Origin: an uncultured Lachnospiraceae bacterium | GTDB lineage: Bacteria; Bacillota; Clostridia; Lachnospirales; Lachnospiraceae | Assembly: GCA_902774915.1 (NCBI GenBank) | Contig: CACYKH010000008.1 | Location: forward strand, 1 to 64,000 | Direction of reading: 5' to 3' | Length of the DNA stretch: 64,000 nt | In this document: positions 59,872 through 62,860 of the stretch, one piece after another | Layout of the letters: each line of letters opens with the position of its first letter | Position numbering within the stretch: the stretch's first letter is position 1 | Program-made: the position numbers and the translations under genes | The notes under the pieces: model-generated | Seen by the model: only the letters and a program-made list of their open reading frames with translations | Databases searched by the model: none | Told to the model about the DNA's origin: nothing

Positions 59872-59906
59872 AACCTATTGACATAATAGGTTGATAGTAT
59901 TAATAT
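59872..59906 (+). promoter_or_regulatory. Promoter of the sulfhydrylase leader with a palindromic operator
   Basis: TTGACA (59878-59883), 17-base spacer, TAATAT (59901-59906). The -35 sits inside the perfect palindrome AACCTATT-GACAT-AATAGGTT (59872-59892), so a repressor bound there would block polymerase. Its form recalls sites of Rrf2-family regulators (CymR/IscR type) that control cysteine or Fe-S genes; this assignment is inference. Confidence 0.72.
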
Positions 59907-59958
59907 ACGCACTATAGCGAGCTAAAGTGCTATGAAATAAATTAGGAGGCAAAACATT

Positions 59959-60084
59959 ATGAGAAGTTATTCACTTAACAAAACATTATATGAAATGTGT
60001 TGTTGTCGAATGCAGAACTCCCGGGCAGTTAATATGGCTGGTATCTTAACATGTCGATGTTTGAGCCTCGAAAATGTAAGATAA
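59959..60084 (+). CDS. Cysteine-rich 41-residue leader peptide upstream of the sulfhydrylase
   Basis: 41 codons from ATG 59959 (AGGAGG at 59944-59949, spacing 9) to TAA 60082-60084. The peptide begins MRSYSLNKTLYEMCCCRMQ, with three successive Cys codons (14-16, 59998-60006) and two more close together (codons 32 and 34, LTCRCL). The Cys run is followed by codons that form the 5' arm of an antiterminator helix. This is the layout of amino acid leader peptides, with Cys as the sensed amino acid, upstream of a gene that makes homocysteine/cysteine. Small Cys-rich leader peptides with an RM..(S)R motif of this type are known near sulfur genes in other bacteria, but I cannot verify that they are the same family. 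Whether the peptide is made is untested. Confidence 0.75.
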   Translation: MRSYSLNKTLYEMCCCRMQNSRAVNMAGILTCRCLSLENVR

Positions 60085-60135
60085 AGATTAACCAAGCATA
60101 TTTGCCCGGGAGCTGAAAAAGGCCTCGGGCTTTTT
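60018..60135 (+). promoter_or_regulatory. Transcription attenuator: antiterminator and terminator of the sulfhydrylase leader
   Basis: Antiterminator helix: CTCCCGGGCA (60018-60027, inside the leader peptide gene) with TGCCCGGGAG (60103-60112), 10 perfect pairs. Terminator: GCCCGGG (60104-60110) with CCTCGGGC (60123-60130), 7 pairs including one G-T, then five T. Both use 60104-60110, so only one can form. A ribosome paused at Cys codons 14-16 would reach to about 60017 and leave the 5' arm free. Confidence 0.78.
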
Positions 60136-60184: not shown

Positions 60185-61465
60185 ATGAGTAATTACAAAT
60201 TCGAAACACTTCAGTTACACGTTGGACAGGAGAAGTCAGATCCTACTACAGATTCAAGAGCAGTACCTATTTATCAGACTGTTGCCTATACATTCCATAA
60301 TGCTCAGCACGCAGCTGACAGATTTGGACTTGCTGATCCAGGAAATATTTATGGAAGACTTACAAACTCTACACAGGGAGTTCTTGAAGAAAGAATAGCT
60401 GCTCTCGAGGGTGGTTCAGCAGCCCTTGCAGTTGCATCAGGAGCAGCAGCAATTGCTTATACTATTCAGGCACTTGCAGCTAACGGTGGTCACATCGTTG
60501 CACAGAAAACTATCTACGGAGGAACTTATAATCTTCTGGAGCATACATTTACACAGTATGGAATTAATTCAACATTTGTTGATACAAATAATCTTGATGA
60601 GGTTAAGGGTGCTATAAAGGAAGATACAAGAGCAATCTTCATTGAGACTCTTGGAAATCCTAACAGTGATATTCCTGATATTGAAGAGATTGCTAAGATT
60701 GCACATGGTGCTGGAATTCCACTTGTAATAGATAATACATTTGGTACACCTTATCTTATCAGACCTATTGAGTACGGTGCAGACATCGTTATTCATTCCG
60801 CAACTAAGTTTATCGGCGGCCATGGAACAACACTTGGCGGAGTTATAGTTGAGTCAGGTAAGTTCGATTGGTCTGCTTCTGGTAAATACCCTAACATTGC
60901 AGCGCCAAACCCAAGCTATCATGGAATTTCATTCTATGAGGCTGTTGGCCCTGCAGCATTTGTAACATACATTAGAGCAATTCTTCTTCGTGATACAGGT
61001 GCAACACTTTCACCATTCAATGCATTCCTTCTTCTTCAGGGAGTTGAAACACTTTCACTCAGACTTGAGAGACATGCTGAGAATGCAAAGAAGGTTGTTG
61101 ATTTCTTAGCAAATCATCCAAAGGTTGCAAAGGTTAATCATCCATCACTTCCAGATCATCCAAATTATGATCTTTATAAGAAGTACTTCCCTAATGGAGG
61201 TGGATCAATCTTCACATTCGAGATCAAGGGTGGAAAGGAAGAAGCTTGGAAGTTTATTGATAGCCTGAAGATATTCTCTATTCTGGCAAATGTTGCTGAT
61301 GTTAAGAGTCTCGTTATACATCCAGCTTCAACAACACATTCACAGCTTACAGAGGAAGAACTTCTGGCTAATGACATTAAGCAGAGTACTATCAGACTTT
61401 CTATTGGTACAGAGCATGTTGATGATATAATCGCAGACCTGGATAATGCACTCGCATCAATTTAA
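60185..61465 (+). CDS. O-acetylhomoserine (thiol)-lyase / sulfhydrylase
   Basis: 426 residues, PLP-dependent Cys/Met metabolism family. Incorporates sulfide into O-acetylhomoserine to form homocysteine (or into O-acetylserine for cysteine). Visible: TDSRAVPIYQTVAYTF, the PLP phosphate loop, AVASGAAAIAYTIQAL, IDNTFGTPYLIRPIEYGAD and the Schiff-base Lys in SATKFIGGHGTTLGG, with C-terminal KSLVIHPASTTHSQLTEEEL. The length and EALERHAENA-type C-terminal domain place it with MetY/OAH sulfhydrylases (426 residues versus about 430). The start follows AAAGGAG. Read from the cysteine-attenuator leader. cysK lies 77 bases downstream with its own promoter. Confidence 0.93.
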   Translation: MSNYKFETLQLHVGQEKSDPTTDSRAVPIYQTVAYTFHNAQHAADRFGLADPGNIYGRLTNSTQGVLEERIAALEGGSAALAVASGAAAIAYTIQALAANGGHIVAQKTIYGGTYNLLEHTFTQYGINSTFVDTNNLDEVKGAIKEDTRAIFIETLGNPNSDIPDIEEIAKIAHGAGIPLVIDNTFGTPYLIRPIEYGADIVIHSATKFIGGHGTTLGGVIVESGKFDWSASGKYPNIAAPNPSYHGISFYEAVGPAAFVTYIRAILLRDTGATLSPFNAFLLLQGVETLSLRLERHAENAKKVVDFLANHPKVAKVNHPSLPDHPNYDLYKKYFPNGGGSIFTFEIKGGKEEAWKFIDSLKIFSILANVADVKSLVIHPASTTHSQLTEEELLANDIKQSTIRLSIGTEHVDDIIADLDNALASI

Positions 61466-61542: not shown

Positions 61543-62472
61543 ATGAGTAAGATATACAAGGGTACTACTGATTTAATTGGAAACACACCTCTCGTTGAGG
61601 TAGTAAATATAGAGAAGGAACTTGGGCTTGAGGCAACAATCCTCGTAAAGCTTGAGTATCTTAATCCTGCAGGAAGTGTAAAAGATCGTATTGCAAAAGC
61701 TATGATCGAGGATGCAGAGGAAAAGGGTCTTCTGAAGGAAGGTTCAGTCATTATTGAACCTACTAGCGGAAACACAGGAATTGGTCTTGCATCTTTAGCT
61801 GCCTCAAAGGGTTATAGAATAATTCTTACAATGCCTGAGACAATGAGTGTCGAGAGAAGAAATATCCTCAAGGCTTATGGTGCAGAGATTGTTCTTACTG
61901 AAGGCGCAAAGGGTATGAAGGGTGCCATTGAAAAGGCTAATGAACTTGCTGAAGAGATTGAAGGAAGCTTTATTCCTGGTCAGTTTGTTAACCCAGCTAA
62001 CCCTGCTATTCATAAAGCAACAACAGGTCCTGAGATCTGGAATGATACAGATGGAAATGTAGATATATTCATCGCCGGTGTTGGTACTGGTGGAACAGTA
62101 ACAGGTGTGGGAGAGTACCTCAAAGAGCAGAAGGCTGATATAAAGGTTGTAGCTCTTGAGCCAGAGGATTCACCGGTTCTTTCAGAAGGTAAGGCTGGAG
62201 CTCATAAGATTCAGGGAATCGGAGCTGGTTTTGTTCCTGATGTACTTAATACAGATGTATTCGACGAAGTATTTAAAGCACCAAATGAGGCTGCATTTGA
62301 AACTGCTAAGCTTCTCGCCAAGAAGGAAGGAATTTCAGTTGGCATTTCTTCAGGCGCCGCTCTTTATGGAGCTATTCAGCTTGCTAGGAAACCTGAGAAC
62401 AAGGGTAAGGTAATCGTTGCCCTGCTTCCAGATAGTGGCGACAGATACTATTCAACTGCATTATTTAATTAA
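61543..62472 (+). CDS. cysK: Cysteine synthase A (O-acetylserine sulfhydrylase)
   Basis: 309 residues. Makes cysteine from O-acetylserine and sulfide. LIGNTPLVEVVN, the PLP lysine in NPAGSVKDRIAKAM, the substrate loop IIEPTSGNTGIGLASLAA, the phosphate loop AGVGTGGTVTGVGEYL and IQGIGAGFVPDVLN are all present, with SSGAALYGAIQLA near the C-terminus. AAAGGAG at 61531-61537. It sits between the sulfhydrylase gene and a Trp T-box. Confidence 0.97.
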   Translation: MSKIYKGTTDLIGNTPLVEVVNIEKELGLEATILVKLEYLNPAGSVKDRIAKAMIEDAEEKGLLKEGSVIIEPTSGNTGIGLASLAASKGYRIILTMPETMSVERRNILKAYGAEIVLTEGAKGMKGAIEKANELAEEIEGSFIPGQFVNPANPAIHKATTGPEIWNDTDGNVDIFIAGVGTGGTVTGVGEYLKEQKADIKVVALEPEDSPVLSEGKAGAHKIQGIGAGFVPDVLNTDVFDEVFKAPNEAAFETAKLLAKKEGISVGISSGAALYGAIQLARKPENKGKVIVALLPDSGDRYYSTALFN

Positions 62473-62556: not shown

Positions 62557-62567
62557 CCACACATAAA

Positions 62568-62860
62568 CCGAAGATGAAGAGTAAGTAGGCGAGACCTCCT
62601 TATCTACAGAGAACCGCTTGGTGGTGAGAAAGCGGATGTTAAGTGTTTTGTTGAATGGACTTCAGAGGGCGACCTGAACTGATTACACATAGTATGGGAG
62701 CCGGAGTAAGAACCTCCGTTAACAAAGTTCGGCATATAAAAGTATGATGGATATCATATGGAGTATGTACTGAGTGGGTGTAAGTATACACCAAGCCGGG
62801 TGGCACCGCAGGAAAAAGATTAACCTGTCCCAGCAATCGAATTAGATTGCTGGGACTTTT
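62568..62860 (+). ncRNA. T-box leader, specifier TGG (tryptophan)
   Basis: The conserved 14-nt T-box core is seen as GGGTGGCACCGC (62798-62809), the antiterminator bulge that pairs with the uncharged tRNA end. Stem I starts near GAAGATGAAGAG, with the AG-bulge region and CGCTTGGTGG (62614-62623), and closes with GTTGAATGGACTTC, where the specifier TGG is at 62656-62658. The intrinsic terminator is GTCCCAGCAATC (62827-62838) / GATTGCTGGGAC (62845-62856) plus TTTT. Trp fits the trpE gene two genes downstream; uncharged tRNA-Trp would allow read-through. Confidence 0.93.

Follow-up and report, generated by a model that had tools for sequence, protein, structure and literature searches.

Ribosome-mediated attenuators of the trp, his and leu type are known from Proteobacteria, where a short ORF carries a run of codons for the cognate amino acid and a terminator shares the second arm of the structure. 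For cysteine, the available text on the uORFC-8-2 motif places it in the Rhodobacterales (Alphaproteobacteria), only before cysS and with the Cys codons contained in its first stem (PMC8632094). Short ORFs with Cys runs also precede cys operons in mycobacteria and other actinobacteria, and are presented in the available part of that report without conserved terminator hairpins (PMC1262725); the title of Canestrari et al. (2020), as cited elsewhere (PMC9094748, PMC13236596), contains the terms leaderless and cysteine-responsive. In the Firmicutes, His leader peptides have been proposed in Bacilli, before hisS/hisZ, where they would replace a T-box (PMC2965389). According to the accessible sections of the respective reports, Cys T-boxes of Clostridium perfringens precede cysK, mcc genes and genes for cystine transport and act by premature termination in response to cysteine (PMC2940859), and C. 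acetobutylicum has a predicted CymR regulon (PMC3828012). For clostridial cysteine genes that lack a T-box, other mechanisms are expected (PMC2940859).

We analysed a leader upstream of an O-acetylhomoserine sulfhydrylase (OAHS) gene in a 64,000-nt stretch of DNA from an uncultured Lachnospiraceae bacterium, hereafter the window (Table 1). A preliminary description had reported a 41-codon frame with its own AGGAGG site, three consecutive Cys codons and two later ones, a perfect 10-bp pairing between the codons that follow the Cys run and a downstream segment, and an intrinsic terminator with five T that shares this segment. Direct reading of the sequence, together with the ORF list, bore out each of these features. 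The frame runs from the ATG at 59959, 53 nt past a −10-like box, to the TAA at 60082-60084, and the later Cys codons are codons 32 and 34 (60052-60054 and 60058-60060). Within the frame, CTCCCGGGCA (arm 1) is the exact reverse complement of TGCCCGGGAG (arm 2), and the terminator hairpin, which occupies 60104-60130, is followed by TTTTT at 60131-60135. The segment 60012-60140 folds at −49.3 kcal/mol (z −5.68), and 0/200 dinucleotide shuffles were as stable. When the first arm was removed by folding from 60035, the terminator hairpin formed instead. The leader terminator was absent from the list of a simple terminator scan of the window, probably because the hairpin has a bulge. The arrangement of frame, Cys run, arms and terminator in the window is confirmed. 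A search of our copy of Rfam with cmscan yielded no match at the element, T-box (RF00230) and SAM riboswitch (RF00162) included, and neither was retained as an account of it. The leader peptide matched no family in Pfam or NCBIfam.

Table 1. Features of the OAHS leader region and the genes behind it (positions in the window)
Feature	Position	Strand	Basis
Inverted repeat ACCTA-TTGACATAA-TAGGT over the −35 box, candidate operator	59873..59891	+	Only loose-pattern match in 64 kb
Promoter-like TTGACA-N17-TAATAT	59878..59906	+	10/12 matches; consensus only
Shine-Dalgarno AGGAGG of leader ORF	59944..59949	+	Read directly
Leader peptide ORF, 41 codons, MRSYSLNKTLYEMCCCRMQNSRAVNMAGILTCRCLSLENVR	59959..60084	+	Direct reading, ORF list; homologues in 51/104 OAHS upstream regions
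Three tandem Cys codons (codons 14-16), proposed sensing codons	59998..60006	+	Cys conserved at codons −1/−2/−3 in homologous sites
CGA ATG between last Cys codon and arm 1, nearly invariant	60007..60012	+	CGA 95/99, ATG 96/99 sites
Arm 1, 5' arm of antiterminator, inside leader ORF	60018..60027	+	98.9% of cells paired with arm 2
Second Cys cluster TGT CGA TGT (C-R-C)	60052..60060	+	Cys is codon 15 after CGA in 40/92 sites, codon 17 in 25/90
Arm 2, 3' arm of antiterminator and 5' arm of terminator	60103..60112	+	Direct reading, pairing counts, covariation
Intrinsic terminator hairpin and T5	60104..60135	+	Direct reading, folding, terminator pairing in homologues
O-acetylhomoserine sulfhydrylase (OAHS), first operon gene	60185..61465	+	TIGR01326, 626.8 bits (cut-off 495.1)
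Cysteine synthase A (cysK), probable second operon gene	61543..62472	+	TIGR01139, 449.9 bits (cut-off 350.95)

The amino acid of the codon run fits the genes behind the leader, which are OAHS and cysK in the window, and most of 100 first genes classified elsewhere. No terminator was listed between OAHS and cysK by the simple scan; because the same scan missed the leader terminator, we only infer that the two genes are co-transcribed. Between cysK and an ACT-domain gene (62879) lies a T-box match at 62562-62835, which scored 80.5 bits (gathering 93; E 7.3e-18). The window's own genome contains five T-box matches at E ≤ 0.001, one of them over the cut-off and the window match among the others, and no SAM riboswitch was found in it. 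Among the matches listed, which may omit records very near the window's genome, the closest named OAHS locus is that of Lachnospiraceae bacterium UBA3850 (92% identical), which shares an identical OAHS upstream region with G046, a genome from the window's genus.

Upstream regions were collected from 80 OAHS loci of named genomes (the best 80 of at least 570) and 30 from the window's own and related genomes; removal of six duplicates from these 110 left 104 distinct regions. The leader core was present within 600 nt upstream of the gene in 51/104 of them, including loci L017 and L041 of the cultured, non-pathogenic Lachnospiraceae AC2029 and XBB2008. Leader rows were picked by the amino-acid pattern M-x-x-S-R-A with Cys, Trp or Tyr just before it, a choice that partly conditions the residues and leaves the codons free. 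They were aligned with MAFFT (alignment A1, which leaves out the 53/104 regions lacking the core). The consensus consists of Cys codons followed by CGA ATG NNN NNC TCC CGG GCA, and the codons are remarkably constant: of the 51 leaders, CGA occurs in 50, ATG in 51, TCC in 48, CGG in 49 and GCA in 40. The one row that departs from CGA has Leu. Because the Arg before ATG is always written CGA, the constraint looks to act on the RNA.

The position of the Cys codons was evaluated in a larger collection of 151 assembled sites, from which three identical ones had been removed. Forty-one were dropped for having no canonical in-frame arm 1, or no stop codon 5-70 nt before arm 2, although the dropped sites include several real leaders whose arms have changed. 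Of the remaining 110, 11 near-identical blocks were set aside to give 99 non-redundant sites. Counting back from the CGA, Cys occupies codon −1 in 78/99, codon −2 in 79/99 and codon −3 in 34/99 sites, counts that are partly conditioned since the model that found about half of the sites was itself informed by the sequence of codons −3 to −1. Further upstream, at codons −12 to −6, Cys is found in only 0-3 of 97-98 sites. The Cys codons at this stall position number one to five, and codon −1 starts 14 nt before arm 1. Some rows of the alignment have one Cys or none before arm 1; locus L043, for example, reads MFYRM and has no T-run. Between the end of the leader stop codon and arm 2 lies a median distance of 27 nt (99 sites). 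Cys is often also the last codon before the stop, as TGT in 29/99 sites, in the context CGATG-TTGA (A1 columns 119-129). The conserved Cys clusters that the preliminary description had proposed looking for in homologous upstream regions are thus present before arm 1.

The 53/104 OAHS upstream regions that lack this leader count against the attenuator reading. They include loci L084 and L087, of the window's genus, whose OAHS proteins are 93% and 90% identical to that of the window and which have no recognisable leader within 600 nt. Both keep the promoter repeat described below, ∼100-110 nt upstream of OAHS (one base off in L087). The preliminary description had named loss of the Cys codons in close relatives, with the gene unchanged, as evidence against its proposal. 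These two loci go part of the way, in that the gene and the promoter repeat are kept and the leader is gone as a whole. We considered a T-box or SAM riboswitch as a substitute; none was found at the 53 loci at Rfam gathering scores. This result is not proof of absence, because the gathering threshold also misses the window's T-box match. Several of the 53 loci have other Cys-rich leaders (L016, L030, L036, L068, L078 and L079), the one at L030 being very Cys-rich (MSYALINKSYEYMCSNRMCCCRIGSCRMCCCDMCNDCID) and without a visible terminator. A different Cys leader, of the form LLI.FVRHN...RMQ.CCCC.CC, lies before OAHS at L329, L331, L332 and L346, and also at L016, L078 and L080. It resembles F.KLVR.NFR.GRMC on contigs labelled Treponema and Clostridia, and is possibly a second attenuator family.

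We then evaluated whether the arms are conserved as RNA structure. Of the 10 positions of arm 1, 9-10 are paired by arm 2 in all 51 leaders, as compared with 6-8 at the second-best place. A T-run of at least four follows arm 2 in 44/51 leaders and is absent in 7/51. Changes on both sides of the helix preserve the pairing in several loci: CGGACA/TGTCCG in L095, L105, L107 and L108, CGAACA/TGTTCG in L032, TTCCGG/CCGGAA in L067 and GGCT/AGCC in L041. Two further helices were recognised by eye: an extension in which AUGGCU (codons 9-10 after CGA) pairs with AGCCAU just before arm 2, and an inner helix of GGGGCG with CGCCUC. Over the 22 pairs of the three helices in A1, 90.2% of 1084 cells were paired, compared with 28-50% in slid registers. 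Changes on both sides occurred at 17/22 pairs, and 0/500 shuffles reached any of five measures. The selection of arm 2 as the best complement of arm 1 favours the outer helix; the inner helices were not so chosen. Antiterminator pairing in the 99-site set was likewise matched by 0/500 shuffles, with 22 double-change cells between arms 1 and 2 versus 2.1 in shuffles. In the homologues, 88.5% of 348 terminator cells were paired. RNAalifold on A1 returned only nine outer antiterminator pairs, and the inner helices were tested as named structures. The window keeps the outer helix at 10/10 positions and the other two at 4/6 and 3/6 in the A1 register. Overall, these data indicate that the antiterminator, which shares an arm with the terminator, is conserved as a structure; the covariation between the arms that the preliminary description had called for is found across the homologues.

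A pause hairpin was considered as the reason for the invariant CGA-ATG. The candidate, CGAAUGC:GCGUUCG, forms in many single folds. With its inner stem it was 80.6% paired, above slid registers and similar to shuffles (76/500 reach this value), and its outer stem had fewer double changes in the 99 sites than shuffles (492/500 reach). The window forms 3/9 of the outer pairs. Although promising in single folds, the pause hairpin lacks support from covariation and is not proposed here.

To relate ribosome position to structure, the 110 sites were folded at equilibrium with a masked ribosome at four positions. With the ribosome seven codons upstream, the mean antiterminator probability was 0.63; it was 0.68 at the canonical Cys position, 0.00 on arm 1 and 0.42 at the stop codon. 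The mean terminator probability was 0.85 with the ribosome on arm 1 and 0.51 at the stop. Masking the Cys position rather than the stop raised the antiterminator by more than 0.05 in 56 sites and lowered it in nine; relative to the position seven codons upstream, it was higher in 31 and lower in 15. These values suggest that the Cys position suits the on state. A ribosome's footprint usually reaches ∼12 nt beyond the start of its A site. Given this footprint and the 14-nt spacing, a ribosome halted at Cys codon −1 would end just short of arm 1. In the window, the antiterminator values were 1.00, 1.00, 0.00 and 0.99 at the four positions, respectively. In this equilibrium model, the off state calls for a ribosome that covers arm 1; for many sites other than the window, one at the stop would also do. 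Equilibrium folding is insufficient as a full account of the off state in the window: because the antiterminator stands at 0.99 with the ribosome at the stop, switching off would need a lagging ribosome, timing or a further hairpin. Of the logic in the preliminary description, the part in which a Cys-held ribosome leaves arm 1 free is consistent with the folding; the part in which an advancing ribosome covers arm 1 applies only for as long as the ribosome stays there.

The attenuator reading is supported by the anatomy of the leader, the Cys codons before arm 1, the covariation of the antiterminator and the recurrence of the element before sulfur operons. Besides the loci that lack the leader, the points against it are the persistence of the window's antiterminator with a ribosome at the stop, the lack of covariation in the pause hairpin, the rows with few or no Cys codons or no T-run, and the single convincing covariance-model match in the window's genome (below). 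On this evidence, the OAHS-cysK operon is very probably controlled by a ribosome-mediated transcription attenuator that senses Cys-tRNA. Under a shortage of Cys-tRNA, the ribosome would halt with a Cys codon of the run in its A site and its leading edge near 60016, as estimated from the footprint rule. Arm 1 would then be free to pair with arm 2 as the latter emerges, so that the terminator is blocked and transcription continues into the operon. With an ample supply of Cys-tRNA, the ribosome would be over arm 1 while RNA polymerase makes the terminator, and transcription would stop. The signal (charged tRNA-Cys), the direction (low Cys as the on state) and the timing of ribosome and polymerase are the presumptive elements of this scheme.

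To determine where the element recurs, the covariance model R1 was searched in genomes blind to genes (E ≤ 0.001). In overlapping samples, the element was found in 41/146 relatives (5/79 genera), 40/393 genomes of the order (24/174 genera), 17/393 of the class (7/220 genera) and 2/299 of the phylum, the window's own included; searches over more than 40 genomes used stricter filters, by which weak matches were lost. In the window's genome, the model recovered the window copy only, two other matches (E 0.45 and 0.52) being taken as chance. From these searches, 103 sites were gathered: 33/54 places in relatives (chosen mainly as lying outside the OAHS sites already collected) and 70/72 new ones from the order, class and phylum. 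Of 105 covariance-model entries, the two chance matches were left out and three had no first gene, leaving 100 to be classified. First genes were clustered by BLAST and named by scanning one or two members per cluster, and the counts include related genomes that are not independent. Pyridoxal phosphate (PLP) enzymes of Cys/Met metabolism (OAHS, cystathionine synthase/lyase type) make up 48, among them a miscalled locus, L268, in which a PepT-like frame precedes the counted gene. A further 24 are ABC substrate-binding proteins, including MetQ/NlpA and family-3 cystine-like ones, followed by eight amino-acid ABC permeases, three ABC ATPases (named by eye), four LCM-type methyltransferases, each with a binding protein behind it, four PepT-like M20 peptidases, two cysK-like genes (by eye) and two SsuA-type sulfonate binding proteins. 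The others, one each, are a LysR-type regulator, a GST_C protein, an SDF symporter, a further ABC permease and a locus with masked bases. No cysS was recognised among the 100 first genes. Most loci with organism names are from metagenome-assembled genomes. It is well supported by these sequence comparisons that the element represents one copy of a homologous, regulon-wide family of putative cysteine attenuators, in the window's family and in other families and orders, often downstream of a promoter with a conserved inverted repeat.

The promoter region contains a second candidate control element. The promoter scan alone proves nothing, because it returned seven promoter-like sites in the window versus 6.1 in shuffles. 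The inverted repeat ACCTATTGACATAATAGGT covers the −35 box of the OAHS promoter. Its loose form, ACCTA-N9..13-TAGGT, occurs once in the 64-kb window and in 45/104 OAHS upstream regions, comprising 29/51 leader-bearing and 16/53 leaderless ones; L078, one of the 16, lacks the TTGAC core and L087 has TTGAT. It also precedes 43/105 covariance-model entries. In the window's genome, ACCTATTGACNNNNTAGGT recurs once exactly and once with a single mismatch (three sites in total), compared with no site at ≤1 mismatch for a reversed control pattern. The further exact site, G000:C12:47747-47765 (-) (L306, L363), precedes a second leader, MTNIYRQNNNMCCCCMLKLTGYEMAGVLACRCLSCK (MCCCC), with a strong terminator and a cystathionine synthase/lyase-like gene behind it. 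This leader was missed by the covariance model and found via the promoter repeat, without use of leader sequence; its ribosome-binding site is poor and it folds without a simple arm pairing. The one-mismatch site precedes a gene resembling glutamate-cysteine ligase (by eye) and no leader. In the order, 29/294 genomes contain the exact motif. Among 54 distinct repeat sites, 16 have a ribosome-binding site followed by a short ORF that contains C-x(0-1)-C, versus a mean of 2.2 and a maximum of five in 30 shuffles, and 14 have an ATG with CC, versus at most three in 20 shuffles; the shuffle routine is approximate. The leaders of L306 and L361 were missed by the ribosome-site rule. By eye, other genes at repeat sites resemble cysteine desulfurase, metK, cysK and SufC. 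At L353, L355 and L357, Cys-run leaders lie behind the repeat and before a metK-like (S-adenosylmethionine synthetase) gene, as judged by eye. A single Rrf2 gene (G000:C12:24487-24876) is present in the window's genome and shares its contig with two of the three repeat sites; the repeat is a candidate operator of a CymR/IscR-like regulator of this type. The preliminary description had contrasted the leader mechanism with CymR-type control; the two may coexist at this locus.

It is conceivable, though unlikely, that such an Rrf2-type repressor acting at the repeat is the main control and the attenuator a minor or relict layer. The retention of the loose repeat in 16/53 leaderless loci, its position over the −35 box in the window, the presence of one Rrf2 gene in the genome and the absence of the leader in close relatives speak for such an arrangement. 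Yet the attenuator covaries and occurs at many operons, and 22/51 leader-bearing OAHS loci have no match to the repeat pattern. The leader might instead report that translation as a whole is slowed, or that the invariant CGA is decoded slowly, with the Cys run secondary. Conservation is indeed higher for CGA-ATG (95/99 and 96/99) than for the Cys codons (78/99 and 79/99), and in the masked folding any stall that leaves arm 1 free would antiterminate. We consider this improbable, as the one to five Cys codons are located exactly at the stall position and the first genes mostly encode amino-acid ABC transporters or enzymes of cysteine, methionine or sulfur metabolism; a switch for general stress would not follow a single pathway.

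Two further explanations assign no regulatory role to the translation of Cys codons. A regulator protein or ligand could bind the leader RNA, for which the conserved core CGAATG-N5-CTCCCGGGCA would offer a site, and the antiterminator exceeds 0.5 without any ribosome in 56/110 sites. Such binding would not account for the open frame with its Shine-Dalgarno start, nor for Cys codons at a constant distance across sites, and the element has no Rfam match, making this explanation very improbable. The scarcely credible case is that of a functional Cys-rich small protein, with a metal or redox role and incidental hairpins. The amino-acid pattern CCRMxxSRAxxMAGA does recur in the leaders. However, the constant part is constant as nucleotides (the CGA, TCC and CGG codons above), it is the antiterminator arm and covaries with RNA 3' of the ORF, and the window peptide is without a match in Pfam and NCBIfam. 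Codon constancy and covariation disfavour a plain conserved small protein.

The proposed cysteine attenuator resembles the trp, his and leu leaders in its codon run, the antiterminator arm right after it, the shared terminator arm and the pathway genes behind. It differs from them in that it would sense Cys, is found in Clostridia and occurs as one homologous element at many operons, as T-boxes do. In addition, it has no proven 1:2 pause hairpin and its ORF runs well past arm 1. To our knowledge, leader attenuators are mostly operon-specific and unrelated by sequence, so a homologous leader-peptide element across a whole regulon would be unusual. The uORFC-8-2 motif, as far as its published description goes, shares tandem Cys codons (two there, usually 14-15), a terminator-like 3' end and the same proposed logic, and by that description is set apart by its taxon, its genes and the placement of Cys (PMC8632094). 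Unlike the actinobacterial leaderless Cys ORFs, as excerpted and by the cited title, the element has a Shine-Dalgarno start, a terminator and a covarying antiterminator (PMC1262725). In the portion of the report at hand, the gene set of the C. perfringens Cys T-boxes overlaps that of the element; those T-boxes read tRNA directly, whereas the window element has a translatable Cys run and no T-box match (PMC2940859). The Bacilli leaders, as summarized in the available text, are similar in being leader-peptide attenuators of Firmicutes and sense His (PMC2965389). Searches of open-licence papers brought up no leader attenuator for cysteine in Clostridia. The mechanism is of a known kind; what appears to be new is the family, together with its spread and its repeated use at many operons.

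The element is a candidate for the other mechanism expected at clostridial cysteine genes that lack a T-box. More tentatively, and with somewhat more doubt than belief, we suggest that it might be a portable, riboswitch-like attenuator, comprising the Cys run, CGA-AUG and CTCCCGGGCA with its two partners, that has spread to about ten kinds of operon, mostly for sulfur, in several clostridial families and orders. At many promoters it would join a cysteine or Fe-S repressor, and CGA-AUG would be a second functional part, a slow codon or an RNA contact, that sharpens the position of the ribosome. The element would add an RNA family absent from the copy of Rfam searched and would explain many short unannotated ORFs. 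With it, cysteine sensing in Lachnospiraceae and their relatives becomes directly testable.
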